A stretch of DNA of 20,088 bases, from positions 1-20,088 of IMG/VR virus record IMGVR_UViG_3300003324_000976; one strand, 5' to 3'. The position numbers and the translations under genes are program-made. The notes below the pieces were generated by a model that was not told the origin of the DNA, ran no database searches, and worked only from the letters and a program-made list of their open reading frames with translations. This stretch comes from a virus. Shown piece by piece: positions 9,027 through 18,490 of the stretch; within the stretch, counting starts at the first letter, position 1; the number at the start of each line of letters is the position of its first letter.

Positions 9027-10403
9027 ATGGACTCGACCAATACTCTGCCGCAGATTGAACCTGCGCAGAGCCACAAAGAGGCCACGGCCAATGAACTCTT
9101 CGCCGCTGCCTCGCCGGCGATGGCCTATGCCCGCAACGCCGACACCAGCGGCGGCCTCACGTGGGGCTACCTCGGCGCACGCTGGGGCGGCACGCTGGTC
9201 GCCAACGGCACGATCACACTCGGCGCCAGCACGACGACATACATCGTCGCGCACCGCACGACCGGCGCGGTCAGCGCGAGCGCCGCGACGACGAACTGGG
9301 ACGACATCGGCACCTACGCCAGGCTCTACAAGGTGTTCACCGGCGTCAGTACCGTGTCGAGCTACGAAGACCACCGCGCCGGCCCGAACGGATTGGTGCC
9401 ATCGTCGTCCGACGCGATTGCCGGTCACGAGGCGGCGACAGACCCGCACCCGCAATACCTCACGGCCGCGGAGGGCAATGCGGCCTATCAGCCGCTCGAT
9501 GCCGAGCTGAGCGCACTGGCCGGTCTGGCGAGCGCGGCCAACAAGATTCCTCGCTTCACCGGATCGGGCACGGCGGGTCTGCTGGACTTCAGCACCGACA
9601 CCGCCATGGCGGCCAACAGCGATACGGTCATCCCCAGCCAGAAAGCCATCCGGAGCTACATCGACAGCGTCGTCACCGGCGGTGCCGTCGACGCGATGAT
9701 CTTCAAGGGCGTGGTCGATTGCTCGGCCAACCCCAACTATCCGGCGGCCGATGCCGGCCATCTCTACAAGGTCAGCGTCGCCGGCAAGATCGGTGGAGGC
9801 TCCGGCCCCAACGTCGAGGCGGGCGACACGCTCTATTGCATCACCGACGGCACGGCTGCCGGCAATCACGCCACCGTCGGCGCGGCCTGGGTCATCGCGC
9901 AGGCCAATGTCGATGGTGCGGTGACCAGCGTGACGTCTTCCGTCACATCCGGCAGCGTCGCTGTTTTCTCCGGCACCTCGGGCAAGGTCGTGGCGGAGCG
10001 CACGCTGAGCCAACTGGCCGGCGATCTGCGGGCCGACCTCAAGCCGACCGACTGCATCCCCGTCGCATGCTCCGACGAAACCACGGCGCTGACGGCCGGC
10101 ACCGCCAAGGTGACGTTCCGCATGCCGTTCGCTTTCACCCTCACGGCGGTGCGTGCCAGCCTCACGACGTCGCAAACCAGCGGATCGATCTTCACCGTCG
10201 ACGTCAACGAAGCCGGCACGTCCATCCTCAGCACCAAGCTGACCATCGACAACACCGAGCGGACCAGCACCACCGCGGCAACCGCTGCCGTCATCACCGA
10301 TTCATCGCTGGCCGACGACGCCGAGATCAGCATCGACATCGACCAGGTCGGTGACGGAACCGCGAAGGGGCTGAAGGTCTATCTGATCGGGTATCGCACA
10401 TGA
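9027..10403 (+). CDS. Tail fibre / distal tail protein
   Basis: 458 aa, Ala/Ser/Thr/Gly-rich and beta-rich. It contains ATDPHPQYLT near residue 135, a motif common in phage tail fibres, and SDTVIPSQKAIRSYID near 205, another frequent fibre signature. The last 120 residues or so (from PVACSDETTALTAGTAKVTF to VYLIGYRT) form a beta-sandwich-like distal domain seen at the ends of other phage tail proteins, plausibly receptor-binding. The ATG at 9027 is preceded by a good ribosome site (AGGAAACAGCA), and there is a 9-bp gap after the tip protein gene. Its end overlaps the next gene by ATGA. Assignment as a fibre is firm; the receptor is unknown. I found no DGR variable-repeat match in it. Confidence 0.8.
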   Translation: MDSTNTLPQIEPAQSHKEATANELFAAASPAMAYARNADTSGGLTWGYLGARWGGTLVANGTITLGASTTTYIVAHRTTGAVSASAATTNWDDIGTYARLYKVFTGVSTVSSYEDHRAGPNGLVPSSSDAIAGHEAATDPHPQYLTAAEGNAAYQPLDAELSALAGLASAANKIPRFTGSGTAGLLDFSTDTAMAANSDTVIPSQKAIRSYIDSVVTGGAVDAMIFKGVVDCSANPNYPAADAGHLYKVSVAGKIGGGSGPNVEAGDTLYCITDGTAAGNHATVGAAWVIAQANVDGAVTSVTSSVTSGSVAVFSGTSGKVVAERTLSQLAGDLRADLKPTDCIPVACSDETTALTAGTAKVTFRMPFAFTLTAVRASLTTSQTSGSIFTVDVNEAGTSILSTKLTIDNTERTSTTAATAAVITDSSLADDAEISIDIDQVGDGTAKGLKVYLIGYRT

Positions 10404-11023
10404 GCTGCGCGTCGCGTGCGCGCCAGCGTGGCTTCTTGCTCAACCCTGCTCGATTTGGTGCAGGTGCGGCTGCTGGCGCCACCTGGGATGCGACCTACAA
10501 CACCACCGGACTGACATATTCCGAAGGGAACCTGCGGATCACGCCGAAGAACTCCATTCACCAGAACGCGCGCAGCAGTAGGGCGATCGTCGGCAAGGTT
10601 TACTTCGAGGTCTTGATCAACGCGCAAGGCATCAATGGCACGCCGACCATTGGCGTCGCTGCCGCCATGGGTGCCAACGCAGCAGTGGGCGAAGACTCGA
10701 CGAGCTGGGGCTACCGCGTCGCATCGGGCTTCGGGATCTACCGGCACAACGCGGTCACCGCCTCGGGGAAGGGCACGGTATCAGCGGGAGGTACGGTGAT
10801 GGTGGCCGTGGACATGCCGGGCGGGAAGATCTGGTTCGGCAAGAACGGCGCATGGAACGAAGGCAACCCGGCCGCTGGCACCGGGGCCCCCTACACCGAC
10901 CTGGCTGGCACGCTGTACGCCGCGACCGGCCTGGATAGCATCACAGGGGTCGCCGACGCCGCGGCGCGTTTCTCGTCGAGCTCATGGGTCTATTCGGCGC
11001 CGTCAGGATTTGGTCAGCTCTGA
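10400..11023 (+). CDS. SPRY-like distal tail protein
   Basis: 207 aa. After a short Arg/Ala-rich leader, the sequence TWDATYNTTGLTYSEGNLRI, then GKVYFEVLI, GYRVASGFGIYRHNA and VAVDMPGGKIWFGKNGAW follows the strand order of SPRY/B30.2-like domains (YFEV - GYR...G - VD...G.IWF.KNG). Such domains occur at the ends of some phage tail operons and are presumed to bind surface ligands. It is translationally coupled to the upstream fibre gene (ATGA) and lies just before the lysis cassette, so it is most likely a virion adhesin or fibre accessory. The fold call is by motif pattern only. Confidence 0.7.
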   Translation: MSCASRARQRGFLLNPARFGAGAAAGATWDATYNTTGLTYSEGNLRITPKNSIHQNARSSRAIVGKVYFEVLINAQGINGTPTIGVAAAMGANAAVGEDSTSWGYRVASGFGIYRHNAVTASGKGTVSAGGTVMVAVDMPGGKIWFGKNGAWNEGNPAAGTGAPYTDLAGTLYAATGLDSITGVADAAARFSSSSWVYSAPSGFGQL

Positions 11024-13961: not shown

Positions 13962-14115
13962 CCTGGCCTTGCGCTGGGGTGCGATCGAACTGCACGCCGG
14001 ACCGGCTGGCGGTGATGGGGAACTTTTTGCCCAAACTGACGCGAATCTGGTCGTTTGGTGCGGTTGGCGCGGATGGCGCTCAGAGGCGCGGCATCCGCGC
14101 GGGGTGTGCGCCATT
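13962..14115. other. Non-coding or weakly coding stretch before the att site
   Basis: Together with 13643-13751 and 14163-14226 this makes up most of a 584-bp interval without a confident gene. Short frames on both strands look like shadows. In 14163-14226 an imperfect palindrome (14183-14196, CGGCGATATTGCCG) lies between the att core and the integrase stop. It could be part of attP or a weak transcription end, with nothing more to support either. Confidence 0.4.
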
Positions 14116-14162
14116 GGATTGCAAATCCGTCTAGTCCGGTTCGACTCCGGATCGCGCCTCCA
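14116..14162 (+). other. Putative attP core: 3' part of tRNA-Cys (GCA)
   Basis: These 47 bases reproduce tRNA-Cys from the anticodon stem-loop to CCA: GGATTGCAAATCC with anticodon GCA, the T arm TCCGG-TTCGACT-CCGGA, the acceptor 3' strand TCGCGCC, discriminator T and encoded CCA. The 5' acceptor, D arm and lower anticodon stem are absent: bases just upstream do not pair. A tRNA 3' fragment beside the 3' end of a tyrosine integrase gene is the classic att core, restoring the host tRNA gene on integration. It lies 64 bp from the integrase stop. Confidence 0.78.
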
Positions 14163-15183: not shown

Positions 15184-15359
15184 GCTGCTTTGTAGGCGTC
15201 GATGTCGGCCTGTTCAAAGCGCACCGCTCTGTGGCCGACACCCATGCGGTAGCACGCCAGCAGTCCGGCGTCGGCCAGATCGTAGACGGCTCTGGCGCTG
15301 AGCCCGAGTTGGGATGCTGTTTCGGCGGCCGTCAGCATCAAGGACGCCCCGTCAGCCAT
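14964..15359 (-). CDS. HTH excisionase-like protein overlapping int
   Basis: 131 aa if read to its own stop. Residues 8-58 (LTAAETASQLGLSARAVYDLADAGLLACYRMGVGHRAVRF) form an AlpA/MerR-type winged helix-turn-helix (HTH_17) typical of excisionases or directionality factors. The last 73 codons overlap the integrase start in another frame and are Ser/Thr/Arg/Lys-rich, with no recognisable fold, so the functional part is probably the first 60 residues or so. ATG 15359 lies 8 nt inside the end of the RT gene, implying translational coupling. By context it would control integrase direction. The long overlap could reflect a lost stop, or a frameshift joining HTH and integrase; I see no proof of either. 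Confidence 0.72.
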   Translation of the reverse strand: MADGASLMLTAAETASQLGLSARAVYDLADAGLLACYRMGVGHRAVRFEQADIDAYKAACRSTKTRPPADGCSTSTGASKVLASVAANSFPKASRAPKPTRSTAKKARPCTRSRPASPSLGTTLTKLSLVT

Positions 15360-16701
15360 CCGACCTCCGGTAGGTCTTGGTCAGCGCCCCATTGACGCAA
15401 TGCCCACGCCGGCGCAGCGCATTGGCGATCCGCGCACGGTCGGCGTGGCTGTGACTGGCCTGGCGCAGCAGGCCGAAGTAGCTGTTGCCGGACTGGTGCA
15501 GGTCCTCGGCCGGCGCCTCGGAAATGCGCAGCAGCGCGGCCGTCATGGTTCGCGGGCGGATCGTGCGATGCCATGGGCGGATCACGTGGCCGACGAAGTC
15601 GATGCCGCGGTTGACCGGCTGCAGGATCGTTTTGCGAGGGTTCAGCCGCAGGTGCAGCTCGGCCAGCTTCGCCTCGATCTGCAGCCGCGCTTGGTGGAGC
15701 CAGCTGCCGTCGCGGTGCAGCAGCACGAAGTCGTCGACGTAGCGCATGTAGTGCGGCGCGCGCAGCCGGTGCTTGATGAACCGGTCCAGGTCATCCAGCA
15801 GCACGTTGGCGAAGAACTGCGACGACAGGTTGCCGATCGGCAGCCCGTGATGCTCGGGCGTATTGAACAGGCTCTTGTGCGGCGGCACCAGGGCCAACTC
15901 GCGGCGGTCCCCGCGCACGTCGACGTCGATGCGCGGGTCGTGCATCAGGATCGTCTCGGTCAGCGCCATCCACCAGGGCTCCGTGACCCTGCGCTGCAGC
16001 TGCTCCAGCAGCACCGCCTTGTCGATACTCACGAAGAAGTTGGCCAGGTCGCACTTCAGGTAGGACGCCGGCCGGCTCCAGTTCTCGGTGATGCTGCGCA
16101 CCTGGCCTTCCAGGCGGCGCGCGGCGTAGAGCGTGCCTCGGCCCGGGATGCACGCGCAGCTATCGGCTACGAAGCGGGCGTGGAAGCGCGGCGCGATGTG
16201 GTTGTACAGCAGGTGATGGACGATGCGGTCGCGGAAGTCGGCGGCCCACACCTCGCGCGGCTTCGGCCGCGTGATGACGAAGCAGATCGAGCGACCCGGG
16301 CGGTAGGTGCCGGCCATCAGCTCTGCGTGCAGGTCGAAGAGGTTGGTCTCGACCTGAGCCTCGAATGCCAGCGCGCTGGCGCTGTTGCGCTTCGTGCGCC
16401 GGCAATCGAGGTAGGCCTGCACCAGCAGGGCGAACAGTGAATCTGCGGACGGCCCGAGCGCCGCCAGCGGCGCTCTTGTGGTTGTTGTTCTGGTTGCCGT
16501 TGTTGAAGTTGCAGTTCCAGGCGTACGAGGCCATGTCGCGCTATGAAGGCCGCCCGGCCGAGAAACTGCGTTCAGCCTGGAAGCTGCACCGGACCCGACC
16601 CGCTGACTCGCGGCGGTCTCCGTGATGTGCCTGTCGGTGGACTCGTGGTCCAGCGGCGCGACCAGATTCACGCGCACGGGCATGAGGGCCTTGACCGTCA
16701 T
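15352..16701 (-). CDS. DGR reverse transcriptase
   Basis: 449 aa from ATG 16701, which overlaps the avd stop (ATGA). The recognisable RT begins only near residue 95, and GTG 16422 (356 aa) is an alternative start of usual family length. Motifs in order: GRSICFVITRPKPREVWAAD (about 136-155), KCDLANFFVSID with catalytic D218, GLPIGNLSSQFFANVLL (286-302), where I-G-N-x-S-S-Q is the DGR-type motif 4, MRYVDDFVLL with D323 and D324, and NPRKTILQP...GIDFVGH (354-372). It has no maturase or endonuclease domain, as in DGR RTs. It would copy TR RNA with adenine misincorporation into cDNA that replaces the VRs. The TR lies within its 5' extension and its stop overlaps the excisionase-like gene. Confidence 0.93.
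   Translation of the reverse strand: MTVKALMPVRVNLVAPLDHESTDRHITETAASQRVGSGAASRLNAVSRPGGLHSATWPRTPGTATSTTATRTTTTRAPLAALGPSADSLFALLVQAYLDCRRTKRNSASALAFEAQVETNLFDLHAELMAGTYRPGRSICFVITRPKPREVWAADFRDRIVHHLLYNHIAPRFHARFVADSCACIPGRGTLYAARRLEGQVRSITENWSRPASYLKCDLANFFVSIDKAVLLEQLQRRVTEPWWMALTETILMHDPRIDVDVRGDRRELALVPPHKSLFNTPEHHGLPIGNLSSQFFANVLLDDLDRFIKHRLRAPHYMRYVDDFVLLHRDGSWLHQARLQIEAKLAELHLRLNPRKTILQPVNRGIDFVGHVIRPWHRTIRPRTMTAALLRISEAPAEDLHQSGNSYFGLLRQASHSHADRARIANALRRRGHCVNGALTKTYRRSDG
16444..16531 (-). repeat. DGR template repeat (TR)
   Basis: 88 bp matching VR1 and VR2. Read on the minus strand it contains eight AAC codons in the VR frame (A-W-N-C-N-F-N-N-G-N-Q-N-N-N-H-K), the typical adenine-rich template that can yield many residues without stop codons. 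The last 30 bases (16444-16473) are identical in all three copies and carry the palindrome GCGCCGC-TG-GCGGCGC (16458-16473). The TR lies between avd and the RT core, as in the Bordetella phage order. The TR-frame peptide itself is closed by an in-frame TAG upstream and is not a gene. Confidence 0.94.
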
Positions 16702-17060
16702 GCTGCAGGCGCCTTGTTCGCGTTCTTGAGCCATCCGCCGGCCTGAGCGCCGATGCTGCCCAGGATCTCGATCGACTCCGCCCACAGCTTCGGCGAGATG
16801 TAGCGGCTGTCGTGGCCGACCCGCAGCAGCACTTGCGCCGCGCGGTGCCGCGTCAGCAGCTGCTCGATGAAGGCCGCACGGGCGGCACGCTGCGAGGCGT
16901 TGGCCAGCGCCATCAGGTCCAGCATGTCCACGCAGTGCTGCATGATCTTCTCGCCGAGGATCTTCTTCACGTTGCGCGGCAGCTGCTCCTGCACCTTCAC
17001 GGCAAGCGCCAGCAGGCGCACGCCGGAGCGGTAGATGGGCAGATCGTGGTGGAGGGCCAT
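16698..17060 (-). CDS. avd: Avd-like DGR accessory four-helix protein
   Basis: 120 aa, almost wholly helical, in the length range of Avd proteins. The opening HHDLPIYRSGVRLLALAVKVQEQLPRNVKKILGEKI, followed by a second helical pair, matches the four-helix-bundle (bAvd, 23S-IVP-like) family that assembles as a pentamer and binds the RT and TR RNA. The many Arg/Lys residues fit nucleic-acid contact. It sits between the target genes and the TR/RT, the canonical place for avd. Its TGA overlaps the RT ATG at 16701. There is no clear ribosome site before ATG 17060; it begins 35 bp after target gene 1. Confidence 0.88.
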   Translation of the reverse strand: MALHHDLPIYRSGVRLLALAVKVQEQLPRNVKKILGEKIMQHCVDMLDLMALANASQRAARAAFIEQLLTRHRAAQVLLRVGHDSRYISPKLWAESIEILGSIGAQAGGWLKNANKAPAA

Positions 17061-17085
17061 GTGGCGGGGTGGCTCAGTTCAAAAG

Positions 17086-17109
17086 GATTGAAGGATCAAG
17101 CGTTCAATC
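17086..17109. repeat. Inverted repeat immediately 3' of VR1
   Basis: Perfect 7-bp arms GATTGAA (17086-17092) and TTCAATC (17103-17109) around a 10-base spacer directly abut the invariant end of VR1 on its coding-downstream side. In Bordetella phage BPP-1 a hairpin just downstream of the VR promotes homing, and this could be its counterpart. VR2 lacks an equally clear copy, having TCCTTTG-type short repeats there instead. Confidence 0.5.
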
Positions 17110-17557
17110 TGCGGACGGCCCGAGCGCCGCCAGCGGCGCCCTTGTGGCTGTAGTGCTGGTAGCCGTCGTAGAAGTTGCAGTCCCAGGCGTCCGAGGCGTT
17201 CGATTCGTGCGTCTCGCAGGACCAATGCCACGTTGGTCGCAGATGAGCCTTGCAGTTCGCGTAGAGCAGGGCCTGCTCTTGCCGCGTCGGGAGCGAGCCG
17301 CCGACCCCTTCGGCCCAGTCCATGGCGTCCTGCCAGCCGAGGTCGCTGTCTGGCAGATCGGCCATCAGCACCAGGTGGTGCAGCACCTTGCCGTCGGCGT
17401 CCAGCACCGCGCCGGCGTAGTGCTCGCCGGGCTGCAGCTCGATCTGCACCGCATCGATGGTCAGATGCGTGGCGGCGCGCTGCTTCTTGAACTTCTCAAT
17501 CAGGTCGGCGAGCTGGTCTTGCTTCTCGACCAGTTGCTCCAGGGTGACGGCGGGCAT
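17096..17557 (-). CDS. DGR target protein 1 with C-terminal variable repeat
   Basis: 153 aa. ATG 17557 has a strong AGGAGG 5 nt upstream. The N-terminus (LEQLVEKQDQLADLIEKFKKQR) is a short coiled coil. The middle and C-terminus (LGWQDAMDWAEGVGGSLPTR, ALLYAN, TWHWSCET, AWDCNFYDGY, GGARAVRR) follow the DUF1566/Lcl, C-type-lectin-like pattern used by many DGR targets. The last 30 or so residues are encoded by VR1, and the varied positions fall in the loop before the invariant GGARAVRR strand, where ligand contact is expected. It has no signal peptide and no tail-fibre-like domains. Its partner or ligand is unknown. It is a diverged duplicate of target 2. Confidence 0.88.
   Translation of the reverse strand: MPAVTLEQLVEKQDQLADLIEKFKKQRAATHLTIDAVQIELQPGEHYAGAVLDADGKVLHHLVLMADLPDSDLGWQDAMDWAEGVGGSLPTRQEQALLYANCKAHLRPTWHWSCETHESNASDAWDCNFYDGYQHYSHKGAAGGARAVRRLNA
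17110..17197 (-). repeat. DGR variable repeat VR1
   Basis: This aligns without gaps to the TR over 88 bp with nine differences. Eight are at TR adenines (to G, T or C) and change six of the eight AAC codons (to D, Y, D, Y, H, Y or S forms) and AGC to GGC. The ninth, a T-to-G at the upstream edge, probably lies outside the homing tract. The 30-bp GC-rich 3' end is unchanged. Confidence 0.93.
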
Positions 17558-17582
17558 GTGGCCTCCTGCGGGTTGGAAAGGA

Positions 17583-18011
17583 TCAAAGGACCAAAGGAAT
17601 CATGCGGACGGCCCGAGCGCCGCCAGCGGCGCTCTCGTGGTAGAGGTCCTGGTAGCCGTTGTGGAAGACGCAGTTCCAGGCGAACGAGGCATCTTCTTTG
17701 TTCCCGGTGTCCGCATCCAGGGTGTCGCTGGTCCAGTGCCAAGTCGGCTCGAACTGGTCCTTGGCGTTGGCGTAGAGCAGCGCCGAGACCGGCCGCGACG
17801 GCAGGGCGCCGCCGACTTCGCTGGCCCACTTCATGGCGTCCTTCCAGCTCAGGCGCTCCTGCGCCCTGTTCGGCAGCAGGATGACGGCGCAGTGAGTGCC
17901 GTCCTTCGTGGTGACTCCGTAGAACTTGCCGCCGGCGAGCTCGGCGCCGATGGTCGGCAGGGTCGAGAAGGAAATGGTCTTGATGGTGTCGTAGATCACG
18001 ATGGTCTCCAT
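17583..18011 (-). CDS. DGR target protein 2 with C-terminal variable repeat
   Basis: 142 aa from ATG 18011; a TTG five codons upstream (18026) is possible, and neither has a good ribosome site. It shares the DUF1566/C-type-lectin-like core with target 1: LSWKDAMKWASEVGGALPSR, ALLYANAKDQFEPTWHWTSD, AWNCVFHNGY, GGARAVR. Its N-terminus differs (METIVIYDTIKTISF, no coiled coil), and it extends six residues past the VR (MIPLVL). Residues varied relative to the TR are in the predicted ligand-binding loop. It is followed 25 bp later by target 1. No signal peptide or structural tail domain is seen, so it may act in the cytoplasm or be attached to virions by another route. Confidence 0.87.
   Translation of the reverse strand: METIVIYDTIKTISFSTLPTIGAELAGGKFYGVTTKDGTHCAVILLPNRAQERLSWKDAMKWASEVGGALPSRPVSALLYANAKDQFEPTWHWTSDTLDADTGNKEDASFAWNCVFHNGYQDLYHESAAGGARAVRMIPLVL
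17603..17690 (-). repeat. DGR variable repeat VR2
   Basis: This aligns without gaps to the TR over 88 bp with ten differences, all at TR adenines. Two AAC codons each changed at both adenines (to GTC and CTC). VR1 and VR2 differ from each other at most of these sites, so the two genes were diversified separately. The 30-bp GC-rich 3' end is identical to TR and VR1. Confidence 0.93.
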
Positions 18012-18046
18012 GAGGTGGTTGGTCAAGGGGTGGTGCGAGCTCGGCT

Positions 18047-18490
18047 TTACGCGGGCGCGCGGTGCTCGTCGAAGTCGAACAGCGTCGGCATCGCGTGCTC
18101 ACGCTCGGCCGCCTGCAGGTAGTGCACTTGGTCGGCGAAGTACGCGCCGTTGAGTTCGCTGCCGCCCGCACGGCGGCCCAGCTTGATAGCCCGCACGCCG
18201 ACCGTGCCCAGCCCGTGGAACGGGTCATAGACCAGGTCGCCGCGGTTGCTGTAGAGCTCGATGGCTCGATCGACGATGTCGAACTGCAGCGGGCAGACAT
18301 GCTTTTCAACCGCGCGCGCGGCCTGCTCGCCGTTGAGCGTGCGCATGCGCGCCACGTCGGTCCAAACGGTCGGATCAGGGCTGCCTTGGGCCAGGCACGC
18401 GAACAGCTTCGGTAGAGCGTCGCGCTCGGCGAGTGTCTGGCCGGCGGCCTTCACGTGGCGCACCTTGTCGGCGATGGGGGTGGCGGCCAC
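18047..18490 (-). CDS. Orphan C-terminal part of a beta-class DNA methyltransferase
   Basis: 147 aa from GTG 18490; GGAG lies about 9 nt upstream and the start is six bases after the DUF2303 stop. It contains EKHVCPLQFDIVDRAIELYS (motif X-like) and YDPFHGLGTVGVRAIKLGRR (motif I, SAM-binding), then SELN. This is the C-terminal order of beta-class N4/N6 methylases. The catalytic (D/N)PP(Y/W) motif and the N-terminal half are absent and there is no room for them upstream. It may be an inactive remnant, or half of a split enzyme whose other part lies elsewhere. Similar C-terminal blocks occur fused to larger proteins in other phages (recollection, not a search). Confidence 0.75.
   Translation of the reverse strand: MAATPIADKVRHVKAAGQTLAERDALPKLFACLAQGSPDPTVWTDVARMRTLNGEQAARAVEKHVCPLQFDIVDRAIELYSNRGDLVYDPFHGLGTVGVRAIKLGRRAGGSELNGAYFADQVHYLQAAEREHAMPTLFDFDEHRAPA

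Follow-up and report, generated by a model that had tools for sequence, protein, structure and literature searches.

The window analysed here, i.e. the whole IMG/VR record IMGVR_UViG_3300003324_000976 (20,088 bases), carries a diversity-generating retroelement (DGR) whose genes stand in the order known from the Bordetella phage BPP-1. The locus raises the question of which RNA serves its reverse transcriptase (RT): in BPP-1 a structured spacer follows the template repeat (TR), whereas in the window a different structured RNA precedes it. As described below, the window DGR has proteins of a known kind, while its RNA makes it a variant.

Components of the retroelement and its relatives

The ORFs of the window and the Pfam and PHROG searches identify a phage contig: it has genes for the tail and for lysis, one tail-fibre-like gene and one for a tyrosine integrase. 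The preliminary description of this DNA, made from the letters alone, had read the locus as a complete phage-borne DGR with two homologous target genes, and the parts, the gene order and the phage genes of the contig support that reading. Every part that it named was located on the minus strand where it had been placed, in the transcription order target A, target B, avd, TR and RT (Table 1); the end that it gave for target A coincides with an ATG start at 18011.

Table 1. Features of the DGR locus (window coordinates; all on the minus strand)
Feature	Coordinates	Strand	Evidence and remarks
Target gene A, 142 aa, carries VR2	17583..18011	-	ORF; C-terminal C-type lectin fold (model)
VR2, variable repeat of target A	17599..17690	-	86% identical to TR
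Target gene B, 153 aa, carries VR1	17096..17557	-	ORF; N-terminal helix, then C-type lectin fold (model)
VR1, variable repeat of target B	17106..17197	-	90% identical to TR
avd, accessory protein gene, 120 aa	16698..17060	-	PHROG 3206 (Avd), 4e-21
RT-15 structured RNA (Rfam RF03018), 5' of TR	16529..16714	-	153.8 bits, E 4.6e-38
Apparent helix, 5' strand GUGAAUCUG	16663..16671	-	AAUCUG part unpaired in the Rfam model; covaries with TR 3' end
TR, template repeat	16440..16531	-	24 A in 92 nt
3' segment, adenine-free except for its last base	16444..16473	-	identical in TR, VR1 and VR2
Apparent helix, 3' strand CAGAUUCAC	16437..16445	-	at and just past TR 3' end; family covariation
RT (putative start)	15352..16500	-	PHROG 1423, 8e-115; frame open upstream through TR and RT-15 to ATG 16701

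Both small genes with the near-identical terminal repeats are present as ORFs, and the adenine-rich template copy was recovered as the TR; no third variable repeat (VR) was found in the window. The VRs were compared with the TR over a core of 88 nt (17110-17197 in VR1 and 17603-17690 in VR2), 23 positions of which are adenines in the TR. VR1 differs from the TR at 9 core positions, 8 of them TR adenines (hypergeometric p 6e-5), and VR2 at 10, all of them TR adenines (p 3e-7), so that 18 of the 19 pooled mismatches fall on TR adenines; the differences between VR1 and VR2 are at the same kind of site. The 3' segment shared by the three repeats is, by its sequence, likely the equivalent of the IMH. 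A palindrome GAGCGCCGCCAGCGGCGCTC in the 3' parts of TR and VR was considered as a BPP-1-like hairpin and rejected because it is not kept in the family consensus.

Both targets are C-type lectin folds according to high-confidence structural models (AlphaFold model of target A with pLDDT 90.6, model of target B with pLDDT 95.9). The models are nearest to the C-terminal domains of Legionella Lcl and Bdellovibrio Bd2740, and C-type lectins were matched as well; the top PDB match of target A is the Lcl C-terminal domain (8q4e), and target B matches 8oks (Z 14.0) and 8q4e (Z 13.3). A PDB sequence search with target B gave no meaningful match, and its match to Pfam Lcl_C (1e-4) lies under the cut-off, while 31 of 37 aligned members match Lcl_C. 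DGR targets in phages are usually receptor binders.

The identification of the helical protein as Avd is confirmed by PHROG 3206, which is also matched by the BPP-1 Avd, together with sub-threshold matches to NCBIfam DivGenRetAVD (1.2e-10; 41.6 bits at a cut-off of 80) and Pfam bAvd (2.4e-8; 34.9 bits at a cut-off of 40); a PDB sequence search with the window Avd gave no meaningful match. The RT carries both motifs reported for it, IGNLSSQ (the DGR motif xGxxxSQ) and YVDD. Its PHROG 1423 is the top match of the BPP-1 bRT as well, and its best PDB sequence match is 8ub7, 'Reverse transcriptase' (3.3e-35), with a chain of 328 aa, which is the length of the BPP-1 bRT. The preliminary description had proposed an RT phylogeny as a check; in the tree the RT and the BPP-1-like RTs form one group (support 1.0), which is separate from the group II and retron RTs. 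The value of 0.11 given as support of the RT-15 clade by itself was not relied on.

Relatives of the RT were found on 333 viral contigs and in 110 genome loci. Among the 151 loci with a placed TR, the window included, 128 have at least two VRs (two in 99, three in 28 and four in 1), and one VR is found in 23, a group that includes incomplete contigs. Two VRs in paralogous genes are also described in PMC3521204, where multi-VR DGRs make up about a seventh of the DiGReF set, and a figure of about 13% multi-target DGRs is quoted in PMC10743442. Since this RT clade as a rule has two targets and such DGRs have been described before, the second target alone is unremarkable. Family-wide, 3730 of 3783 mismatches (98.6%) in 297 VRs are at adenines, which account for 30% of the sites. 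Two pairs of loci with identical RTs were compared: L022 and L023 differ at 14 VR sites, all adenines, and at 1 of 1966 other bases, and L067 and L071 at 19 VR sites, again all adenines, and at none of 1636 other bases. These sequence comparisons support a live DGR family, the evidence of activity coming from close relatives rather than from the window contig in particular. The same layout occurs in cultured phages: Burkholderia phage Magia, Pseudomonas phages Cruim01 and LPPA56 and Shewanella phage QDWS have RT-15, TR, two tandem VR genes, avd and RT, with an integrase gene nearby in the stretch examined of Magia, LPPA56 and QDWS. They differ from the window in that the DNA is just ~68-70% identical, and their RT start annotations vary.

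The RNA upstream of the template repeat

The gap between avd and TR is filled by a match to the full RT-15 model (positions 1-192), with a score well above the gathering score of 82, and the end of RT-15 is the start of the TR. This structured RNA was absent from the preliminary description. RT-15 is present in 157 of the 161 RT relatives, and in nearly all of them the TR starts within a few nucleotides of its end. To avoid selection by RT, the RNA model alone was used to search ~1,000 genomes; 46 of the 47 RT-15 hits over the cut-off have a TR after them, whose adenine-specific copies lie close by. This sample is only partly independent, because 7 of its genomes came from RT-selected loci. 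A literature search found no paper tying RT-15 to DGRs; the presumed source paper of RT-15, reportedly Weinberg et al. 2017, lay outside that search.

The likeness to BPP-1 claimed previously holds for the order of the genes (mtd-avd-TR-brt in NC_005357), as well as for the RT clade, the Avd family, adenine mutagenesis and a C-type-lectin target; it does not extend to the RNA. In BPP-1 the target is Mtd and avd abuts the TR, whereas the window has two short targets and 166 nt between avd and TR. The 144-nt spacer that follows the BPP-1 TR is RF03022 (Phage_DGR; 104.7 bits), and in 50 BPP-1-like loci the gap between TR and RT is 143-186 nt; RT-15 was found in none of the BPP-1-like loci. The window has no TR-RT spacer: the RT frame overlaps the TR, and homology in this frame starts within the TR 3' end. 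The covariance search for RF03022 gave no match in the window; in Pseudomonas-family and related genomes it gave 0 matches too, with the positive controls likewise silent. The overlap of the TR with an end of the RT ORF, here the 5' end, places the window in group 3 of DiGReF as defined in the available parts of PMC3521204; an upstream structured RNA is not among the features described there.

The segment of RT-15 that is free in the Rfam model was paired with the TR 3' end in a consensus fold of ~90 loci. In the window all 9 of 9 pairs form (16671-16663 with 16445-16437). Of the 910 pairs in 91 non-redundant loci, 734 are standard ones, as compared with 640.6 +/- 8.1 when the segments are permuted among loci and 249-420 when the register is slid. 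At pair 6, 38 loci have U-A, 35 G-C, 7 C-G and 2 A-U, and parsimony on the RT tree yields 41 compensatory double changes at pairs 4-8, as against 3, 3, 7 and 0 in shifted registers; pair 5 forms in just 53% of loci. The data in which the helix was first seen and those used to test it overlap; the RNA-selected loci add a partly independent set. Judging by this covariation, a conserved helix of ~6-9 bp apparently joins the AAUCUG segment of RT-15 to the TR 3' end. Of its two strands the Rfam model, which ends where the TR begins, contains the 5' one only; the helix and the DGR context are added here. With such a helix the RT-15 core domain and the TR would form a closed loop. In most loci the identity of TR and VR stops inside the helix, and its outer half pairs much better with the TR (94/89/65%) than with the VR (65/42/24%), so that it may help to choose TR RNA over target mRNA as the template.

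Alternative explanations

Conservation of the stretch 16529-16701 might be due to protein coding, if the RT starts at ATG 16701, in overlap with the stop codon of avd, and translation continues across RT-15 and TR. The RT frame is indeed open from an upstream ATG here and in about 80 loci, the annotated Magia RT starts upstream of the TR, and there is some amino-acid conservation. The region nevertheless has a pN/pS of 0.85, changes nearly equally at all codon positions without codon periodicity and matches an Rfam covariance model; moreover, 58 of the 157 loci have it in a frame other than that of the RT, and in 19 further loci the frame is closed, with the RNA kept. Coding was rejected as the main cause of conservation on the grounds of pN/pS and the frame, and we consider this explanation unlikely. 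An RT start at ATG 16701 could still be compatible with an RNA role in the branch of the window.

It was also considered that the element is an ordinary BPP-1-type DGR with its spacer RNA hidden in the RT gene after the TR, RT-15 being a mere leader or regulatory RNA of the RT. The gene order is that of BPP-1, whose spacer recruits the enzyme and primes the cDNA from an adenine within it (PMC12875486), and RT-15, located between avd and RT, could control RT translation. This reading is at odds with the lack of an RF03022 match in the window, with the synonymous variation of the RT gene, which is normal again directly after the TR overlap with no suppression, and with the position of RT-15, which lies within a few nucleotides of the TR in nearly all loci and covaries with the TR 3' end. 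This possibility is thus quite improbable. Given the spacer role in BPP-1, the overlap of RT frame and TR, the absence of RF03022 and the lack of a sign of an embedded RNA mean that the window family needs another arrangement. Finally, the DGR of this particular phage may have decayed, its parts being present and its activity lost; a scan of 15200-18200 revealed no sigma-70-like promoter. All ORFs are intact, however, the catalytic YVDD is kept, the core differences between VRs and TR are all at adenines save one, the VRs differ from each other at such sites, and relatives are active as judged from the RT-identical pairs. Decay is the least probable of these readings. Hence the locus is with high confidence a complete phage DGR that probably works and belongs to a proteobacterial subgroup of wide occurrence, with RT-15 5' of the TR and apparently tied to its 3' end by a helix.

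Proposed function of RT-15

The following course of events is suggested. The template RNA would be supplied by a transcript running through avd, RT-15, TR and RT. RT-15 would be bound by RT and Avd, and the helix would bring it together with these proteins to the TR 3' end, the presumed start of cDNA synthesis; RT-15 itself may prime the cDNA. The cDNA would then run through the TR with errors at adenines and replace the VR of either target by means of the shared adenine-free 3' segment. According to this scheme, RT-15 would take over the task of the BPP-1 spacer but act from the 5' instead of the 3' side of the TR.

A trace of common origin of the two RNAs may be seen in the UGGUC that follows the strand pairing with the TR 3' end both in BPP-1 and in the RT-15 family, a suggestive likeness. 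Pairing with the TR 3' end is found in BPP-1-like loci too (208 pairs vs 188.4 +/- 4.0 permuted). The position matching the BPP-1 priming adenine, which we take to be A56, is G in 130 of 150 RT-15 sequences, A in 13 and T in 7, and exact homology was rejected for this reason. The homology of RT-15 and the BPP-1 spacer stays a suggestion, because the priming adenine is not conserved and five letters are weak evidence.

On balance, the data lean towards the view that a large proteobacterial clade uses RT-15 as its DGR RNA and that RT-15 is the BPP-1 spacer in permuted position; in this view a 5' structured domain spans the template, pairs with its 3' end, starts adenine-mutagenic cDNA synthesis and marks TR RNA as against VR mRNA. 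What is known of the DGR mechanism rests largely on BPP-1, where recruitment of the enzyme and priming of the cDNA are both due to an RNA that follows the template. If the proposal is true, a large clade has this RNA before the template and linked to its far end by a conserved helix; the place of the RNA domain could then be before or after the template, and an Rfam family with a name that tells nothing of its function would gain a role.

Candidate start of the reverse transcriptase gene

In the window, the candidate ATG of the reverse transcriptase (RT) frame shares bases with the avd stop codon in an ATGA at 16701-16698. From this ATG (16701) the RT frame is free of stop codons across both the structured RNA RT-15 and the template repeat (TR). 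In other relatives the candidate RT ATG is located within the TR instead. The annotated RT gene of Burkholderia phage Magia contains the TR.

Variable repeats and their target genes

The variable repeat (VR) copies of phage Magia were located here in genes 46 and 47; in the genome paper of this phage, genes 47 and 57 are given as the targets. Many relatives (including the loci L012, L013, L032, L040, L065 and L069) harbor an extra VR gene, which is separated from the two tandem target genes by several kb. A near-perfect palindrome, GAGCGCCGCCAGCGGCGCTC, is present in the TR and in VR2, the repeat of target A; it was looked for in the family consensus and is not conserved there.

Other genes of the window

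Positions of the palindrome copies and of other genes in the window
Feature	Position	Length	Remark
SPRY-domain gene	10400-11023		located after tail-fibre-like gene
tRNA-Thr	14066-14162	97 nt	ARAGORN prediction; adjoins integrase gene
Palindrome in TR	16456-16475
Palindrome in VR2	17615-17634
Methylase ORF	18047-18490	147 aa

The methylase ORF matches larger helicase/methylase families over just one section close to their C-terminus (positions 806-928 of 986 in PHROG 16) and may be truncated. The tRNA-Thr is a possible attachment site.
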